Positions 2,205 through 9,581 of a DNA stretch of 48,821 nucleotides are shown piece after piece (position 1 is the stretch's first letter; every line of letters begins with the position of its first letter). The stretch covers positions 1-48,821 of the forward strand of contig CALJNC010000017.1 in the NCBI GenBank assembly GCA_937981995.1, given 5' to 3'. The translations under genes and the position numbers were made by a program. The stretch comes from an uncultured Chitinophagaceae bacterium. GTDB lineage: Bacteria; Bacteroidota; Bacteroidia; Chitinophagales; Chitinophagaceae. The notes under the pieces were generated by a model. It saw only the letters and a program-made list of their open reading frames with translations, was not told where the DNA came from and made no database searches.

Positions 2205-2640
2205 CTTGAAGTATTAAAAAGGTACTAATTTTTAGTTTAAAAAACTTAAGCACCTTATCTTAGATCTAACTAAACTAAAAACTATGTAAAGTAATAATTA
2301 ATTAAAATATATAGCGTTTCTTTTAAGAGAATCACTACGTTGAAATCGCAAAATTAAAAGCTACAGTGAAGAACTTGAAGGAGCGCACCCTGAGAAGGGT
2401 GTGTTCTTCCTGTAAATCATGTAGCAAGGTTTTTGCGAACCTCAACGTATGACAAGCACGGGCTCACACCCTTTTCTTATGTCATGAATTGAACCCGTTC
2501 ATTTAACAAAATAGAGAAGAAACAACATAAACTCATTATGTGCAACAGTGTCAACTTTGTTTCTCCGGCTAAAGAAACATTTACTAAATCATGACGAAAT
2601 CTATTAACTGTACAATATAAAAAAGATTAACTTTAGAACT
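2205..2640. other. 436-base intergenic region with RNA-like hairpins
   Basis: No gene is evident between the two secreted-protein genes. The middle of the gap is visibly less AT-rich than its ends and can fold. Hairpin 1 pairs CACCCT (2386-2391) with AGGGTG (2396-2401) around a GAGA loop, with outer arms GAAGAAC (2368-2374) and GTTCTTC (2403-2409) and a ten-base bulge on the left. Hairpin 2 pairs AGGTT (2427-2431) with AACCT (2438-2442). A third pairing joins ATGACA (2449-2454) and TGTCAT (2480-2485). The remainder (2205-2340 and 2520-2640) is AT-rich, with the promoter for the gene at 2641 presumably at its right end. Confidence 0.5.
2368..2485 (+). ncRNA. Candidate structured RNA or 5' leader element
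   Basis: Three local inverted repeats fall in one 118-base stretch. The first is a six-pair stem capped by GAGA, a GNRA-type tetraloop, stacked below a bulge on a seven-pair stem. The other two are short stems. The order (bulged hairpin with GNRA loop, then smaller hairpins) is typical of structured RNAs. I recognise no Rfam family in it: it lacks the SRP-RNA, tmRNA and RNase P signatures I know. The strand is assumed from the flanking genes; the perfect palindromes fold on either strand, although the GNRA loop exists only on the plus strand. It could be a leader of the gene at 2641 (155 bases downstream), a small RNA, or a relic of a mobile element. Confidence 0.3.
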
Positions 2641-4296
2641 ATGAAATACATAATTTCAATTCTCCTTGTATCGGTAGGTATAAATTTACTTGCCCAGCCT
2701 CCGCAGCCTACACTCAACTGGGTGAAAACTATGGGCAATACAGATGTTGATCAGGTTAGGTCTATGGTACCAACATCAGATGGTGGTTTTATTGCTATTA
2801 GTGAAGTTTATTTTCCGAGCAGTGGTGATTTTATAAAGCCTACAGGTCATAGTTCTTATGAATTTTGTGCCATCCGTTTTGATAGTACCAAAAGTGTGGT
2901 TTGGAAACAATGTTATGGAGGCAGCGGTCAAGATCGGCCTTTTAAGATAATAACACTCAGAAATGGTAGTTTTCTTATAGGTGGTGATACTGAGAGTAAT
3001 GATGGAGATGTCACTCACAAACGAATGGGAGGTACTAATGCTTGGCTATTATGCATTGACGGTAATGGCGGCAAGCTATGGGATAGCACCTATGGAAGCG
3101 CTGTGGGTGTTGGATTTAGCGATGTGATTGAAACACTAGATGGAGGTTATATGCTTTGCATAGTGGGCAATCAGGGTAATGGAGATTTAGATAGCGTTTA
3201 TGGTGGCAATGGTGGGCTGTATGATGCTCATTTGCTTAAATTGGATAGTACTGGTACGAAAGAATGGGTGCGTAATATTGGCGGCACTGGAGATGAAGGA
3301 GCCATGAAAGTTGTACAGCACCCAGATAGTAGCTATTATATTACGCTATATAATGAGTCACTAGATATTGATTGTACCCCTAGTGGTTTTAGTCTGAATG
3401 GTTTTCCCAACCCTGCTGACAATCCCAGCAGAGATATGTACGTTGCTAAGTTAGACAAAAACGGTACAATGCTTTGGCACTATGATTATGGAGGTACCTT
3501 ATTCGATGAGATTAACCCTGGTGGAGGTATTTTATTGGCAGATGACACTTGCCTCTTTGTGGTGGGTAATACTCGATCTAATGATTACATGGCCAGCAGC
3601 AATCATAGTGGTTCTTTAAGTAATCCAATAACAGATATTCTCGTTTTAAAAATAGATACTAGCGGTAAACTATTATGGAGTAGGTGCATTGGTGGCAGTT
3701 ATGATGATGAATGCTTTAGCATAGCCTCTAATGGATCGGGCGGAATATTACTGGCAGGTACTAGTCAAAGTTGGGATGGAGATGTGCCAAGAAGCTTTGA
3801 TAGCAGCGGTATAAATGATGCTTATATAGCGAATGTTGATACCAATGGAGATTTAATTTGGGGCGGGAGTATAATAGGACAATGGAATGATGTATTGGTG
3901 TCGGGATGTGTTTTGTCCGATAAACATCGTATTTTAGTTGGAGGGTTTACAGCAACACAAGGCCCGAGCGGTGACATACCTGGACCTTATAAAGGTAATG
4001 GAGACATGCTCTTTGCTGAGTTTAGTTTATGGCCATCAAGTTCAAATTATATTACTAAAGAAGAGGATTTTATGATTTATCCAAATCCTGCTTCTACTAA
4101 AGTTTATGTGCGGGGAGTATTAAATGATAATGATATTATATCATTACAAGATATTAATGGTAAACAACTCAAAGTACTTTCCAAGAAGGAAGCATTTCAT
4201 GGGATTTCTTTAAGAGAATATCCTGCCGGTTTTTACTTATTATCCATTCGTACAAATAAAACTATCATTTATAAAAAATTAATTATTCAATCCTAA
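2641..4296 (+). CDS. T9SS-secreted repeat protein, probable beta-propeller
   Basis: 551 residues. A signal peptide (MKYIISILLVSVGINLLAQ) is followed by Pro-rich PPQPTLNW. About six degenerate repeats of 55-70 residues then follow, each built as W...YGGS.DD, a GG[FY] turn, a hydrophobic strand GG(T/N)..S, and a strand ending in KLD..G...W. Examples are WKQCYGGSGQD, WVRNIGGTGDEG, WHYDYGGTLFDE and WSRCIGGSYDDE. This resembles the propeller-like repeats common in large Bacteroidota surface proteins; the exact fold is inferred. The last ~75 residues are a type A sorting domain (FMIYPNPASTKVYV ... GFYLLSI ... IIYKKLIIQS). It is complete and in frame, unlike its two neighbours. Thirteen bases separate it from the next gene, so the two are probably co-transcribed. 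No enzyme motif is visible; a role as surface or extracellular binding protein is an inference. Confidence 0.85.
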   Translation: MKYIISILLVSVGINLLAQPPQPTLNWVKTMGNTDVDQVRSMVPTSDGGFIAISEVYFPSSGDFIKPTGHSSYEFCAIRFDSTKSVVWKQCYGGSGQDRPFKIITLRNGSFLIGGDTESNDGDVTHKRMGGTNAWLLCIDGNGGKLWDSTYGSAVGVGFSDVIETLDGGYMLCIVGNQGNGDLDSVYGGNGGLYDAHLLKLDSTGTKEWVRNIGGTGDEGAMKVVQHPDSSYYITLYNESLDIDCTPSGFSLNGFPNPADNPSRDMYVAKLDKNGTMLWHYDYGGTLFDEINPGGGILLADDTCLFVVGNTRSNDYMASSNHSGSLSNPITDILVLKIDTSGKLLWSRCIGGSYDDECFSIASNGSGGILLAGTSQSWDGDVPRSFDSSGINDAYIANVDTNGDLIWGGSIIGQWNDVLVSGCVLSDKHRILVGGFTATQGPSGDIPGPYKGNGDMLFAEFSLWPSSSNYITKEEDFMIYPNPASTKVYVRGVLNDNDIISLQDINGKQLKVLSKKEAFHGISLREYPAGFYLLSIRTNKTIIYKKLIIQS

Positions 4297-4309
4297 AAAA
4301 CAATATACC

Positions 4310-7300
4310 ATGAAAAAACTAATCTTATGTTTCATTTTAATCTCCAATTGTGCACTTGTTTGCGCACAGTCGCCCTCGTCGCCCTCGTATGCTCCTTTGC
4401 CTAATTATTCGCAACCTGGTTTAACTTATCAGCAGGCACTAGATGGTATACTCTATCATTTTAATGACCCTACGGATACAACAGAGGGTAGTAGCTTTTT
4501 AAAAATTAGCAAATGGAAACGTTTTTGGCAGGATAGAATTTGTGCAGACTTTCCAAATGGTAAAAATGCATTTACAGCTTTAGCTGAATTGGCTAAATTT
4601 TCAATTGATAATCCACACGCACTCTGTAGTGAAACCGATGGTAAATTTCAGGGCAATTGGTCCTCAATTGGTCCTGACACTTTGCCGAATAATATGCAAG
4701 CCTTAGGCTTATTTAATACGGTATGGGCGAGTCCTACCGATAGTAATTTTATACTTGCTGGTAGTGGAATGGGTGGTTTATGGAAAACTACTGACGGAGG
4801 AGCGCATTGGCACAATATTACGGATAATGCCAATATTGCAGGTACTATGGGAGTAATGAGTATCGCCGTTAACCCTTCAAATCCAAATGAAATATGGTTA
4901 GCTACTCCTAGCCATTATCATTTACAAGGTTCTTATTGGTTTAACGATGGGTATCATTATGGAGTGATTCGTACAATGGACGGTGGTGCTACTTGGCAGC
5001 ATGAGCCTTTCTTTGTAGGCCCTAATGGGCTATTGTCTATAGAGCACGGGGTGGATAAATTATTGTACGCACCTGACGGAACCTTGTGGGCTTTTAATAA
5101 GAAGAAAATTTTTATGAAGAAGCAAGGGCAAGCATGGAGCGTAGTCCATACGTTAGGAGGGCAAGAGGCGATAACAGATACTTTTTTTACAGATATTGCT
5201 TTTTTACCTAGCCCTCCGCATAGGCTCATAGCATCTACAAATAGTATAATTGATCTAGTAGACTCGGTTGGAAATGCGCTTCTTTATGAGTATAGTGATT
5301 CAGACGGAACTATTCTGCATCAGTATATGCATGATAGTATTGTTAAGTATTACGGTAATCCTGTGCATACTAATATTGCCAGTATATCAATACCTAACAA
5401 TAATAACGTCTATTATGACTATGATGATGTGTTTATAGTGCAAGGCCCTCCGCCTATTTTTGCACCACAAATAAAAAGATTACTTATACTAGGTCATATA
5501 GATAGAACTACTGGAATCATAGACACAAATATTACGAGAAGGGTTACGAATACAGCGATAATTGGAAAATTAATTGTGAGTCCCAATAATCCAAATACTA
5601 TCTATTTTGGAAGCCCTCAAAATGTCGGGGGCGTTGCATATATGTCTGTTGATGGCGGAGAAATTTTTGCTCCCATTAGTACCTATTGGGGAGAACCTAC
5701 ACATGGCGATATACGTGGCATGTATTTACAGACAAGTTCTCCGCTTGATAGTGGTCGAGGAGATTTATTATTTTTTGCTTCAGACGGTGGCATAGGTAAA
5801 AAACCAGCAGGCAGTGTATACAATTTTGGGCAATTTAGTACTAGAACGTGTGTAAATATTAATGGTAGAGGATTAGCAGTAACCCAGTTTTATGGGATGG
5901 CTGATCAGGACGGTCAAGAAAAATTTCTGAGTGGTGGTGCTATTCATAATGGTATGTTTGCCTGTGAGGGAGATCAATCAATCCCTTGGAAGGTTATACA
6001 AGTTACCGATGCCGTAGATTGCGAATTTGATGCAGTGAATAGAGATAAAGCCTACTATCAATTGGGTTATCCTACAGCTCCTAATAATTTCCAAGGCCAA
6101 CTGTATGCATCTGATACTGGCGGTGGACGCAAAATAGATTCTCGTTATTCTTATCAACAAGATCATATTATGCTGCATCAAGAAAAATACGAAAATGCCT
6201 TTCCAATCAATATTTCTGAAACCAGTAAAAAGCTTTATGTGGGTAAAGAACGATTGTGGGTTAAGGATAGCACTTGGTTAAATGATGGAAATTGGAGAAG
6301 GTATGGACCCTTAGGGTCTTACCATCCTAGAGGTTACTATTCTGATCAGGTTTGGGGCATTGACTCATTACCTGTGCGCTGTTTTGCCATTGGAAAAAAC
6401 GATTTGGACGATAGAAAAGCTTACGTATGTTACTTTTCTCAAAATTCTAAAGGAGATCAATTAGTGAGTTATACACCCGATGGAGGGTTAAATTGGTATG
6501 ACGCTACACCGCAGCATCTATTATCAAGTGCAAGTAATGCTGGGCATAGAAGCCCGATCAGTGCCATAGCCATTGGTGATCAAAACCCAAATAAAGTATG
6601 GCTTGGACAAAGCCAAATAAATATGGGTAGCGATGGTAAGCCTACCAATTCACGTAGAGTACTCTATACGGAAGATGATCCATTTGTTGTGGGTAGTGGA
6701 AATGTAGTTTGGAAGGATTTATCCAAGGGTTTGCCACCGCATCCGGTTACCTCATTGGTGTATCAATCGGGTAGTGATGATGTTGTATATGCAGGTACTG
6801 ATGTAGGCGTATATCGTTTCGTAAAGCAAGAGCCTATTGATAGCTCATTCTGGGTATGTTTTAATGATGGTTTCCCTAAATCATTAATCAATGATTTGGA
6901 GATCAATTATTGCAGTGGTAAGTTACGAGCAGCTACACATGGGAGAGGTATGTGGGAAAGCGATTTGTACCATGCTAGTTCAGGCAATATAGGTACGAGT
7001 AAAAAAGTAGATGCTGGTGGTACTACTACTTTAACGGGAGATGTTTATATTGAAGGTAGTATTACAGTAGAAGCTGGTAATACTTTGTTAATAAAAGGCA
7101 CAGCGACTAACCCAACTACAATACACATGCCTAAATGGGGGCGTATCAATGTAAAAAAAGGAGCACATCTTATTGTGGATGGTGCTACAATTACTAATTC
7201 TTGTAATACCATGTGGTTAGGAATATTTATAGATGGTGATGATAATTTGTCACAAACACCTTTAACCAATCAAGGGGTATGTGAATTAAAGAATGGTGCC

Positions 7301-8791
7301 GTTATTGAAAATAGTGAGAATGGTGTTGCTAACTATTGGACAGGACTTGGCGGTGGAATTATAATAGCTAATAATGCTACTTTTAAAAACAATAGACGCA
7401 GCGCGGCTTTTCTAAAATATCAAAATTATATCTCTAATACCATTATACCCAAGGCAGATGTCTCCTATTTTAAAAATTGTTCCTTTATTGTAGATGATGA
7501 TTATCCCAGTACTGGTCCAGTATTTACTTATCATATATCTCTATGGGGTATGGATAGAGTAAAAATAACAGGCTGTTCTTTTGATAATCAAATGACTAAT
7601 GCACTCCATACAGGTAAAGGTATTGCCTGTTTAGATGGTTCTATTTTAGTAAATGAAACATCGAATGCTGGAAACCCAAGTAGTCCTGTTGTGCCAAGTA
7701 CTTTCAATAACTTAGAAATGGGTATAGATTTAGGCGGTTATAATCTTTTAAGCAATGCTATTGTGGTTAACTCAGATTTTAGCGAGAACAAAATAGGTAT
7801 TCAAATGCTTGGTCATGATAATGGAACGTTTGGACTCAACGAATTTGAAAATTTAAGCACCACATGGGGGGTAGGCTTATATGCCAATGAGTGCCCACAT
7901 TATAATATTAGTGAAAATGAATTTGTAGGTAGTAATGCGCATAATACGGTTCCAACTTTTGGAACTTGGATTGCTAACACCTATGCTAATGACAACTTTG
8001 TATATAAAAATACATTTAAAGACTTGGCTTACGGTAGTGTCTCCGAAGAGTATAATCACGGATACCAATTTGGCGGTGGTGCACCTCGTGAATATGGTGT
8101 GCGCTTTAATTGTAATACAAACACGAATAATTTCAGAGACATTTATGTAGGTCCTTCTGGATCTCAATATGGAATACATTCTAATCAGTTAAGCATCTCA
8201 AGTTTGGGTGCATTGCAATCAGCCGGAAACACATTTAGCCAAAATTCACCAAGCCAAAATTCCATAGGTTGGGATTTCGCAAATTACGGTCAAGGAATAC
8301 GATACTATCATTCGGGAGGTACAACAGACCCATTATACAATGATGGTACGATAAGTAAAATGACAACACTGCCTGCTACAAACTGTGATGCCAGATACAA
8401 CCCCAATGTAGACCCGATTGATTTCCCAACATCAAGATTAACTTCTGCTATTATACGTTATAATTCTTTACATGCCTCTTTAGTAACTGCTTTGTATAAT
8501 CATCAGCAGGTAATAGATGATGGAAGCACAAATCAAATGGTTGGCAATGTTAGTGAAACATGGAATGATAATGCTTGGACTTTACGAAATAATTTATTGG
8601 CCGAGTCTCCGTATTTATCAAATGAAGTATTGCGCCAAACGGGTGAAGAAAACATTTTACCGCAAGCGATGTATTTAGAAATTATTCTCGCTAATCCAGA
8701 GGCTTCTAGAGAACGTGAGTTCTTAGAGTTTCTTCAATATGAATTAGCTAATCCATTGCCAACTTATATGATAAAACTTAATTGTGGCTAG
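4310..8791 (+). CDS. Giant secreted protein: sialidase/VPS10-like propeller plus parallel beta-helix (frameshifted near its C-terminus)
   Basis: 1493 codons to a TAG at 8789-8791. A signal peptide (MKKLILCFILISNCALVCAQ) precedes a region with repeated Asp-box motifs: TTDGGAHW near residue 160, TMDGGATW near 225, SVDGGEIF near 448 and TPDGGLNW near 724. This is the pattern of sialidase/VPS10-type beta-propellers. From about residue 905 to 1310 come short repeated strands (VYIEGSITVEAGNTLLIKG, INVKKGAHLIVDGATI, then AVIENSENGV-like turns), typical of a right-handed parallel beta-helix. The final part is helical (LLAESPYLSNEVL ... PLPTYMIKL) and stops without a sorting domain. The sorting domain lies in the next frame (8784-9581). 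Deleting one A from AAAA at 8773-8776 joins them into about 1756 residues. Related Bacteroidota proteins continue across this point with helical sequence, so this is one disrupted gene. Confidence 0.85.
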   Translation: MKKLILCFILISNCALVCAQSPSSPSYAPLPNYSQPGLTYQQALDGILYHFNDPTDTTEGSSFLKISKWKRFWQDRICADFPNGKNAFTALAELAKFSIDNPHALCSETDGKFQGNWSSIGPDTLPNNMQALGLFNTVWASPTDSNFILAGSGMGGLWKTTDGGAHWHNITDNANIAGTMGVMSIAVNPSNPNEIWLATPSHYHLQGSYWFNDGYHYGVIRTMDGGATWQHEPFFVGPNGLLSIEHGVDKLLYAPDGTLWAFNKKKIFMKKQGQAWSVVHTLGGQEAITDTFFTDIAFLPSPPHRLIASTNSIIDLVDSVGNALLYEYSDSDGTILHQYMHDSIVKYYGNPVHTNIASISIPNNNNVYYDYDDVFIVQGPPPIFAPQIKRLLILGHIDRTTGIIDTNITRRVTNTAIIGKLIVSPNNPNTIYFGSPQNVGGVAYMSVDGGEIFAPISTYWGEPTHGDIRGMYLQTSSPLDSGRGDLLFFASDGGIGKKPAGSVYNFGQFSTRTCVNINGRGLAVTQFYGMADQDGQEKFLSGGAIHNGMFACEGDQSIPWKVIQVTDAVDCEFDAVNRDKAYYQLGYPTAPNNFQGQLYASDTGGGRKIDSRYSYQQDHIMLHQEKYENAFPINISETSKKLYVGKERLWVKDSTWLNDGNWRRYGPLGSYHPRGYYSDQVWGIDSLPVRCFAIGKNDLDDRKAYVCYFSQNSKGDQLVSYTPDGGLNWYDATPQHLLSSASNAGHRSPISAIAIGDQNPNKVWLGQSQINMGSDGKPTNSRRVLYTEDDPFVVGSGNVVWKDLSKGLPPHPVTSLVYQSGSDDVVYAGTDVGVYRFVKQEPIDSSFWVCFNDGFPKSLINDLEINYCSGKLRAATHGRGMWESDLYHASSGNIGTSKKVDAGGTTTLTGDVYIEGSITVEAGNTLLIKGTATNPTTIHMPKWGRINVKKGAHLIVDGATITNSCNTMWLGIFIDGDDNLSQTPLTNQGVCELKNGAVIENSENGVANYWTGLGGGIIIANNATFKNNRRSAAFLKYQNYISNTIIPKADVSYFKNCSFIVDDDYPSTGPVFTYHISLWGMDRVKITGCSFDNQMTNALHTGKGIACLDGSILVNETSNAGNPSSPVVPSTFNNLEMGIDLGGYNLLSNAIVVNSDFSENKIGIQMLGHDNGTFGLNEFENLSTTWGVGLYANECPHYNISENEFVGSNAHNTVPTFGTWIANTYANDNFVYKNTFKDLAYGSVSEEYNHGYQFGGGAPREYGVRFNCNTNTNNFRDIYVGPSGSQYGIHSNQLSISSLGALQSAGNTFSQNSPSQNSIGWDFANYGQGIRYYHSGGTTDPLYNDGTISKMTTLPATNCDARYNPNVDPIDFPTSRLTSAIIRYNSLHASLVTALYNHQQVIDDGSTNQMVGNVSETWNDNAWTLRNNLLAESPYLSNEVLRQTGEENILPQAMYLEIILANPEASREREFLEFLQYELANPLPTYMIKLNCG

Positions 8792-9581
8792 TTGGTCAAC
8801 CGAGACGTATCGAACCAGTCTTGAAAATACAATAAGTATGCTTCAAGCTGAACGGAATGAAAGTATCTACGAAGTGGTACAATGTATGATGCACAGTGAG
8901 AATGAAACTACTGATTACACAAATGACATAGCTACATGGTTGGATAAAGTACAAACTGTACATTCTCGTTTTCAGTTATGTGAATATTATTTAAGTAAAG
9001 GTCAAAATGCAAATGCACAAAATACACTTTCTGCAATTTCAACTTCTTTTGAACTCAGTGAGAAAGAGCAAACTGAATTGAACGCTTATACAGATTTTTT
9101 CAACTTTAAAATAGGATTACAGAATAGTAGTATAAGTATTCATGAATTAGATGAAGTCAAGAAAACTGATCTGACAAACATTGCTGAAATGTTCCCGAGT
9201 ACCTATGGTGGACAAAGAGCTCAAAATGCTTTATGTTTTTTCTATAATGATTGTATTACCAAGAGCTTTGCAATAGTACCACCTCAAAATAAAAAGGTCG
9301 TTGAGTCAGTAAATAATATATCAGTACAACAAGAAATCAAAGTATATCCTAACCCTGCTAAAGATCACGTTACTTTTCAAATAATGAATCCAGATAAATC
9401 TTGCGAGGGTTGTAAAATTGTTATTACAGATTTACACGGTCGTACTGTTAATGAAGGAGAATTAAATGAGCTAAGCGGAATGTATATATGGGATACGAGA
9501 AAAATAGTCCCTGGAGCTTATATTTATCAGGTGAAGACTAATTTATCAGTGGAAAGTGGTAAAGTAGTTATTATGAAGTAG
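8784..9581 (+). CDS. C-terminal helical region and T9SS sorting domain of the giant secreted protein
   Basis: The 265 codons from a GTG at 8784 overlap the end of the preceding frame by eight bases. The start is nominal; the frame is open slightly upstream (NLIVASWS). The first ~170 residues are helical and rich in Glu and Gln (TSLENTISMLQAERNES, WLDKVQTVHSRFQLCEYYL, NAQNTLSAI), like the helical spacer that precedes the sorting domain in related giant proteins. The end is a type A sorting domain: VYPNPAKDHVTFQI ... CKIVITDLHGR ... GAYIYQVKT ... GKVVIMK. It has no signal peptide of its own and cannot be secreted unless fused to the upstream frame. A strong intrinsic terminator follows at 9604, closing the transcription unit that starts near 2641. 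Confidence 0.8.
   Translation: MASWSTETYRTSLENTISMLQAERNESIYEVVQCMMHSENETTDYTNDIATWLDKVQTVHSRFQLCEYYLSKGQNANAQNTLSAISTSFELSEKEQTELNAYTDFFNFKIGLQNSSISIHELDEVKKTDLTNIAEMFPSTYGGQRAQNALCFFYNDCITKSFAIVPPQNKKVVESVNNISVQQEIKVYPNPAKDHVTFQIMNPDKSCEGCKIVITDLHGRTVNEGELNELSGMYIWDTRKIVPGAYIYQVKTNLSVESGKVVIMK

Follow-up and report, generated by a model that had tools for sequence, protein, structure and literature searches.

A two-state RNA element, probably a switch, mostly preceding genes for surface, uptake and secreted proteins in many Bacteroidota

Bacteroidota are major polymer degraders in soils, waters and guts, largely via secreted and TonB-fed systems, and to our knowledge little is known of how these genes are controlled after transcription has started. 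Several described RNAs come close to the element reported below. The trp attenuator follows a segment logic of 1:2, 2:3 and 3:4, in which an antiterminator (2:3) excludes both 1:2 and the terminator (3:4), with a U-run after 3:4. ANTAR leaders (nasF, amiE, eut) place two tandem hairpins and a competing terminator in the leader, and the CAT/RAT antiterminators (BglG/LicT) are hairpins that overlap a terminator. Within the phylum, Flavo-1 RNA (RF01705) is an orphan structured RNA, and structured 5' elements without Rfam hits are described from Flavobacterium psychrophilum in PMC9723704.

Each of these has something in common with an RNA element found at positions 2313-2480, + strand, of the window, by which we mean the whole 48,821-nt stretch of DNA analysed, from an uncultured Chitinophagaceae bacterium. 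This extent is that of a covariance-model match (R1, R2 and R3) over the full model. We propose, with a probability of roughly 0.78, that the element heads the downstream operon at its 5' end and attenuates transcription in cis, with trp-like logic and no leader peptide. It is probably an RNA switch that, mostly before surface, uptake and secreted-protein genes in many Bacteroidota, decides whether the next gene is read. At the level of sequence comparison, both of its folds, its strand, its position before a gene and its terminator-like end are established.

Like the trp attenuator, the element has four segments and a U-run; unlike it, the element bears no sign of an ATG leader peptide, would use a whole-length rod (helices P1-P4) as antiterminator, and precedes targets that are not amino-acid operons. 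It shares the two tandem hairpins and the competing terminator with ANTAR leaders, but its loops are the variable, mutually complementary strands of helix P2, and its antiterminator is the rod and not the second hairpin. In PMC3369936, ANTAR leader loops are described as requiring A1 and G4. An A1/G4 pattern is absent from the two loops of the element, since the P2 columns carry several letters at the first and fourth positions (92 copies). A search for the ANTAR domain gave no match in 20 genomes, nor in the control; CAT_RBD was found in none of 20 element-bearing genomes, with 4 of 14 control genomes positive. The examples that PMC9723704 names for F. psychrophilum precede pheA, hisG, ftsY, acsA, alaS and rimP, unlike the element, and an overlap of the element with the 64 structured 5' elements of that source is possible. 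We found no such element in the open-licence literature searched, which included the accessible parts of PMC8632094, PMC3369936, PMC2965389 and PMC9723704. The RNA is apparently undescribed, an attenuator leader with a new fold.

No Rfam 15 family overlapped the element at or above its gathering score in the window or in 40 of the 92 aligned loci, and none exceeded its cut-off anywhere in the window, which settles a check proposed in a first-pass annotation of this DNA. No Flavo-1 match overlapped the 40 scanned copies at E up to 1; at one locus (L047, 549-619, - strand) a sub-threshold Flavo-1 match of 33.1 bits (gathering score 42) lies about 0.9 kb from the element. Three other candidates were set aside. 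6S-Flavo RNA (RF01685) gave no covariance match in the window or the 40 loci and none in 29 genomes, the control also lacking a match. With a lax threshold, Rfam gave nothing beyond weak, sub-threshold matches, and the two that overlap a copy were taken as chance: SpR19_sRNA in the window (minus strand; 15.7 bits, cut-off 79) and ctRNA_p42d at locus L090 (25.8 bits, cut-off 50).

The element lies in an intergenic gap of 436 bases (2205-2640) flanked by two co-directional secreted-protein genes. The first-pass annotation had placed a structured RNA at 2368-2485. Structured RNA is indeed there, but the span was too short, as the conserved element reaches 55 nt further 5'. Of the hairpin that had been drawn, the apical part is present within the strongly structured part of the gap: CACCCT (2386-2391), the loop GAGA (2392-2395) and AGGGTG (2396-2401). 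The outer stem GAAGAAC/GTTCTTC (2368-2374/2403-2409) has a base-pair probability of 0.0 in the ensemble of 2313-2486, and in the minimum-energy fold GAAG at 2377-2380 takes up the CTTC of GTTCTTC in its place. The remark that the structure is not at a gene end with a T-run was half right, in that a T-rich run does follow directly after CACACCC (2465-2471), a sequence able to pair with the 3' arm of the same apical hairpin. Stability was compared with that of dinucleotide shuffles, a lack of it having been named as a reason to drop the RNA; for 2305-2505 we obtained z -5.6, with none of 200 shuffles as good. In the same kind of comparison, 2350-2515 on the + strand gave z -3.8 (0 of 200 equally good) and the whole gap z -4.3 (0 of 100), while the minus strand of 2350-2515 was weaker (z -2.6, 2 of 200).

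Next, homologues were sought. A BLAST search with the DNA gave matches in 7 of 99 relatives. One is the window itself and one a partial relative of the same genus (L010); the other five span 22-31 bases each, and among these L011 alone was inspected. On folding, the same-genus relative takes the same shape (z -6.8). A covariance model of the window copy alone (R1), run on 195 genomes, detected three full-length copies in the genome of that relative (G001) and one weak match (E 0.003) in another genus (G172). Retrained on these five sequences (R2), the model matched at least 23 of 394 genomes of the family, the own genome included, and at least 14 of 396 genomes of the order. Retrained on 47 rows, 41 of them distinct (R3), it matched at least 45 genomes in a phylum-wide set of 296 and, with deeper scoring, at least 23 of 38 family genomes, one by a partial match only; both counts include the own genome. 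The six genomes scored deepest held at least 2, 6, 0, 7, 7 and 11 copies, the first being the window's own. Genome and copy counts are lower bounds because a first-look filter scores only some candidates per genome (at most 7 in the family and order R2 scans, 9 in the phylum R3 scan, 74 in the 38 family genomes and 150 in the six). A further run was positive in 18 of 20 genomes, mostly ones already positive, and gives no frequency. A pattern search turned up seven named stretches in six MAGs; all match R2 and all carry labels of Bacteroidetes or its subgroups, one being Flavipsychrobacter and one Sphingobacteriales.

The search thus supplied what the first-pass annotation had called for, homologues with compensatory changes: 92 copies were aligned (A8), with a median pairwise identity of 0.46. 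Loci L056 and L058-L062, whose RNA sequence is the same as that of other loci, and the partial match L108 were left out of A8. From an earlier alignment (A6) the last row, a minus-strand echo of L027, was dropped, and removal of identical sequences brought 47 to 41. A MAFFT alignment of the first two sequences put P2 and P4 out of register and was not used for the models; hits listed without a locus are outside the examined set.

The structure in the models is a rod, state R, made of P1-P4 with inner helices plus a small hairpin, H0, 46 pairs in total. Its main strands in the window are the following.

2336-2343, + strand: TACGTTGA, 5' strand of P1; partner 2442-2449 (family z 38.3, pair counts)
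2442-2449, + strand: TCAACGTA, 3' strand of P1; partner 2336-2343
2346-2353, + strand: TCGCAAAA, 5' strand of P2; partner 2431-2438 (family z 26.1); loop of the 5' hairpin in the putative terminator state
2431-2438, + strand: TTTTGCGA, 3' strand of P2; loop of the 3' hairpin in the putative terminator state
2360-2365, + strand: GCTACA, 5' strand of P3; partner 2420-2425 (family z 34.9, pair counts)
2420-2425, + strand: TGTAGC, 3' strand of P3; partner 2360-2365

Over the 92 copies, 91.7% of the model cells are paired (55.1% when shuffled, 37-43% when slid), 1430 cells are compensated as against 458 shuffled, and the covariation score is 0.825 versus 0.196. Two-sided change occurs at all 46 pairs, a count that says little at n=92 because shuffles average 42.2; in the first five sequences it occurred at 29 of 46 pairs (11.9 in shuffles). 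The alignment favours the rod, since its rows were aligned by models of that structure. When each strand was tested against its own partner (2000 permutations, n=92), helices P1-P4 gave z 17.6 to 38.3 and H0 z 10.2. G.U cells outnumber A.C cells by 354 to 91, indicating that RNA of the + strand is what is kept.

A second set of helices was first spotted by eye, when the window's tail CACACCC(TTTT) was seen to complement the apical 3' arm. The segments and helices concerned, which make up state T, are given below.

2314-2323, + strand: GCGTTTCTTT, segment 1; pairs with segment 2 in the putative terminator state (helix S0, z 11.0), also part of the small local hairpin H0
2377-2391, + strand: GAAGGAGCGCACCCT, segment 2; its partner is segment 1 in the putative terminator state and segment 3 in the rod (helix P4)
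2392-2404, + strand: GAGAAGGGTGTGT, segment 3; pairs with segment 2 (rod, P4, z 17.6) or segment 4 (terminator, helix T, z 12.5)
2465-2476, + strand: CACACCCTTTTC, segment 4; 3' arm of helix T, the family mean of own partners exceeding all 2000 permutations
2472-2478, + strand: TTTTCTT, T-rich run at the end of the candidate terminator stem, read directly from the sequence
2332-2369, + strand: helix S1, TCACT (2332-2336) with AGTGA (2365-2369); overlaps P1 and P3 by one base each (family z 15.9)
2427-2442, + strand: hairpin S2, AGGTT (2427-2431) with AACCT (2438-2442); excludes P1/P2 (family z 9.5)

For each alternative helix, own partners were compared with partners from other copies (2000 permutations, n=92, kinship uncorrected). 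T, between the apical 3' arm and the tail, and S0, between the 5' end and the apical 5' arm, gave z 12.5 and 11.0; S1 gave 15.9, S2, which joins the flanks of the P2 3' strand, 9.5, S3 7.8 and S2' 4.8. Five segment pairs expected to be unpaired gave z 0.1, 0.9, 1.0, 1.2 and -3.3, the last of which indicates that z is uncalibrated here. None of the alternative helices is part of the covariance models, so the alignment is not fitted to them. In 51 rows never used in any model, the values were 10.1 (T), 9.2 (S0), 11.2 (S1), 6.1 (S2) and 5.6 (S3), S2' falling just below its own permutation maximum; an earlier run on the 41 distinct rows agrees. S1/S3 and S2/S2' are partly linked, because a rod's 3' half is the complement of its 5' half; this holds less for S0 and T, whose segments 1 and 4 are not part of the rod. 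The strong helices of the window copy are S0, with 10 bp, and T, with 12 bp; S1 is formed by 5 bp and S3 by only 3 bp. A closing 1:4 helix between the 5' end and the tail was rejected (z 1.9 in the full set, 3.0 in held-out rows, both below the permutation maximum). S1 was at first taken for a pseudoknot, but it overlaps P1 and P3 by a base each with no linker and so fits the other fold better.

The alternative helices are mutually compatible, and each clashes with some part of the rod; together they make two hairpins in tandem, with the P2 strands as their loops. The antiterminator pairing 2:3 (z 17.6) excludes the pairings 3:4 (12.5) and 1:2 (11.0), strands 2 and 3 being shared between the helices. 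Compensatory evolution thus reveals both of two complete alternative folds in a single RNA. Under the mechanism we propose, segment 1 would pair with 2 and segment 3 with 4 in state T, helix 3:4 and the U-run acting as an intrinsic terminator that keeps the operon off. In state R, the 5' half would pair with the 3' half as the rod P1-P2-P3 capped by P4 (2:3), leaving segment 4 unpaired so that polymerase reads on. Since the hairpins of state T expose both P2 strands as loops, loop-loop kissing between these complementary strands could start the change into the rod. The use of 1:2, 2:3 and 3:4 as in trp raises the question of a ribosome that mediates attenuation through a leader peptide, as in trp and his. 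We consider this very improbable: short ATG ORFs at the right place are depleted, with 23 in 92 copies against 54.5 in plain-shuffled sequence (ATG starts only).

The end of the element was examined in the same copies. Over its last 10 nt the T fraction is 0.74 and 0.69 (two five-base bins), compared with 0.12 just before and about 0.3 after, and a run of at least four T is present in 71 of 92 tails, leaving 21 without, and in 20 of 92 control windows. Helix T looks like an intrinsic terminator because its tail runs into U's; in the window it closes a 61-nt loop, long for a terminator. A median of 22 nt (IQR 21-24) separates the last rod strand from the U-run, and a strand about 22 nt behind the polymerase would be about to leave it, so we infer that the rod can be complete as the decision falls.

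By predicted energy the rod is usually the stabler fold, with T minus R at a median of +5.1 kcal/mol and a range of -13 to +22 (kissing lies outside the model), which implies that switching needs kinetics or a factor. For the window copy, the rod with its tail held open has -53.8 kcal/mol and the terminator fold -49.6; in the second copy of the same genome the order is reversed (T -54.1, R -48.5). The isolated halves of the window copy fold as the predicted hairpins (-17.9 and -31.7 kcal/mol). Together, the energies and the folding of the halves suggest that the 5' hairpin 1:2 would be made first, with termination as the default, and that a protein or other signal, or a slow polymerase, would let the rod win. 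Such a signal may act at the near-invariant AA/UU/GG/C positions around P2. In A8 these are A42, A43, U56, U57, G180, G181 and C196; they flank P2 and form A-U and G-C pairs in the two hairpins, while A/C and U/G are opposed in the rod. They would be the best place for a bound protein or ligand. Because the switch helices are known base by base, the sensor of such a switch would be directly testable.

We then looked at what precedes and follows the RNA. The Bacteroidota promoter box has the consensus TAnnTTTG according to PMC9723704. Counted in this form or as the relaxed TAnCTTTR, the latter chosen after the sequences had been viewed, the box is present within 110 nt upstream of the RNA in 58 of 91 copies, against a control mean of 11.2 (maximum 24) and 11 on the reverse strand; still further upstream it is present in 7 of 91. 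It is found in 1 of the 62 RNA-ORF spacers of 40-450 nt, shorter and longer ones being left out (control 5.5), and in none of 92 copies in the 120 nt behind the RNA (control 7.8). Among 22 further copies, 15 have the box upstream. There is no enrichment of an antisense promoter, as in plasmid copy control, either inside the RNA (4 of 92; control 6.4) or behind it (7 of 92; control 9.0). For the window copy, we note one candidate.

2256-2263, + strand: TATCTTAG, putative weak promoter -7 element, picked by eye; does not match the counted box

In 85 of 92 copies, the next ORF (about 80 aa or more) runs in the same direction as the RNA; the median distance is 107 nt, and 78 of 92 lie within 300 nt. 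Among ORFs of at least 120 aa within 400 nt, 71 are co-directional and 3 are not. The 22 further copies, judged by the longest ORF starting within 500 nt, divide into 19 co-directional, 2 opposite and 1 with none. Upstream ORFs have no bias toward the strand of the RNA (36 +, 54 -, 2 none). The box and the terminator-like end delimit a unit of median 168 nt, which is what an independent small RNA gene of about 170 nt would look like, with its own promoter and terminator, acting in trans and indifferent to the gene behind it; the presence of several copies per genome would also suit such a gene, four of the six most deeply scored genomes having at least 6, 7, 7 and 11. We regard it as quite unlikely, given the co-directional ORF behind 85 of 92 copies, the scarcity of boxes between RNA and ORF, and a terminator arm competing with the rod that a stand-alone gene does not need. 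Of the two roles offered by the first-pass annotation, small RNA and leader, the second is thus the one favoured by the shared direction of RNA and gene, by a promoter-like box that precedes the RNA but does not follow it, and by a terminator-like 3' end competing with the rod.

The genes following the window copy form a tight co-directional cluster of three, two of them with a T9SS sorting domain.

2641-4296, + strand: first gene behind the RNA (spacer 160 nt), 551 aa; has a T9SS type A sorting domain and is weakly similar to an SBBP beta-propeller family
4310-8791, + strand: second gene, 1493 aa; matches no Pfam family and a single NCBIfam family weakly, below the cut-off
8784-9581, + strand: third gene, 265 aa; has a T9SS type A sorting domain

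In the own genome's second copy (L112), a small lipoprotein-like ORF lies 24 nt downstream. Over the copies, 83 co-directional ORFs of at least 80 aa within 600 nt were taken as the downstream set. By a crude hydropathy rule, a hydrophobic signal-like N-terminus is present in 47 of these 83 proteins versus 13 of 87 upstream proteins. Pfam matches in this set cover 51 families, of which 25 are listed; among the matches listed are TonB plug domains (9), sigma-70 regions 2 and 4 (5 each), SBBP propellers (3) and many other families once or twice. The downstream genes are diverse, with no common pathway among the targets. If a single RNA class stands ahead of the genes for TonB receptors, ECF sigma factors, T9SS proteins and lipoproteins in many families, it would define a new regulon. 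We can also imagine, at rather less than even odds, a phylum-wide class of sensor RNA whose regulon comprises genes for surface, uptake and secreted proteins, and in which all strands are exchanged between the rod and two hairpins with mutually antisense loops in response to a protein or small-molecule signal. Terminated leaders, once released, might in addition act in trans on other copies through the same loops.

If the signal were a metabolite bound by the rod or by the two-hairpin state, the terminator being the expression platform, the element would be a riboswitch. A terminator/antiterminator platform and a few near-invariant positions (those around P2) are consistent with this, and diverse targets would suit a general signal; on the other hand, there is no large conserved unpaired core, every paired column shows compensated variation, and the targets lack a common pathway. 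We rate a riboswitch as unlikely, somewhat less so than a free-standing small RNA, and its odds lie within those of the attenuator, of which it is a sub-case.

Opposite-strand ORFs of at least 60 aa within 400 nt upstream number 45, and at least 10 of these divergent proteins have Cro/CI-type HTH domains by Pfam. Such a protein is a possible partner regulator. By eye, the divergent minus-strand ORFs upstream of L067, L072, L076, L080, L081, L097, L104 and L114 have a Cro/CI-type HTH look, and several such ORFs precede SusC/TonB or ECF genes.

The scattered distribution, with 0-11 copies per genome (lower bounds) among diverse neighbours, bears on the question of whether the unit is RNA at all or a miniature mobile element or DNA cruciform of the REP/MITE kind. 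Recombinase- or transposase-like ORFs were seen by eye near L022 and L025, and near the contig start the window has a short serine-recombinase/resolvase-like ORF (501-767, - strand) with weak sub-cut-off matches to CcrB, IS607 and YneB. We give this explanation hardly any weight. Compensatory evolution at 46% median identity, a G.U over A.C bias on one strand, a fixed orientation to promoter-like box and gene and a fixed U-run all speak for the RNA and the attenuator reading. Two pattern scans of viral contigs, sensitive only to near-consensus copies, gave no match.

A few further observations concern single loci. At L018 and L021, the element is preceded, some 200 nt upstream, by a tRNA gene of the same strand; mobile DNA commonly inserts at tRNA genes. 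At L017, the gene following the copy (690-1379, - strand) looks by eye to be lipoprotein-like with a cysteine- and glycine-rich C-terminus, and the next gene encodes a membrane protein with a thioredoxin-like segment; the two may be a peptide-maturation pair. Finally, the P2 sequence CTGGTA/TACCAG is common to 16 rows of A8 from several families, as seen by eye (L031, L041, L064, L067, L068, L069, L071, L072, L075, L078, L080, L081, L083, L084, L093 and L110), while P2 varies elsewhere; this reflects either recent spread or a recognised sequence.
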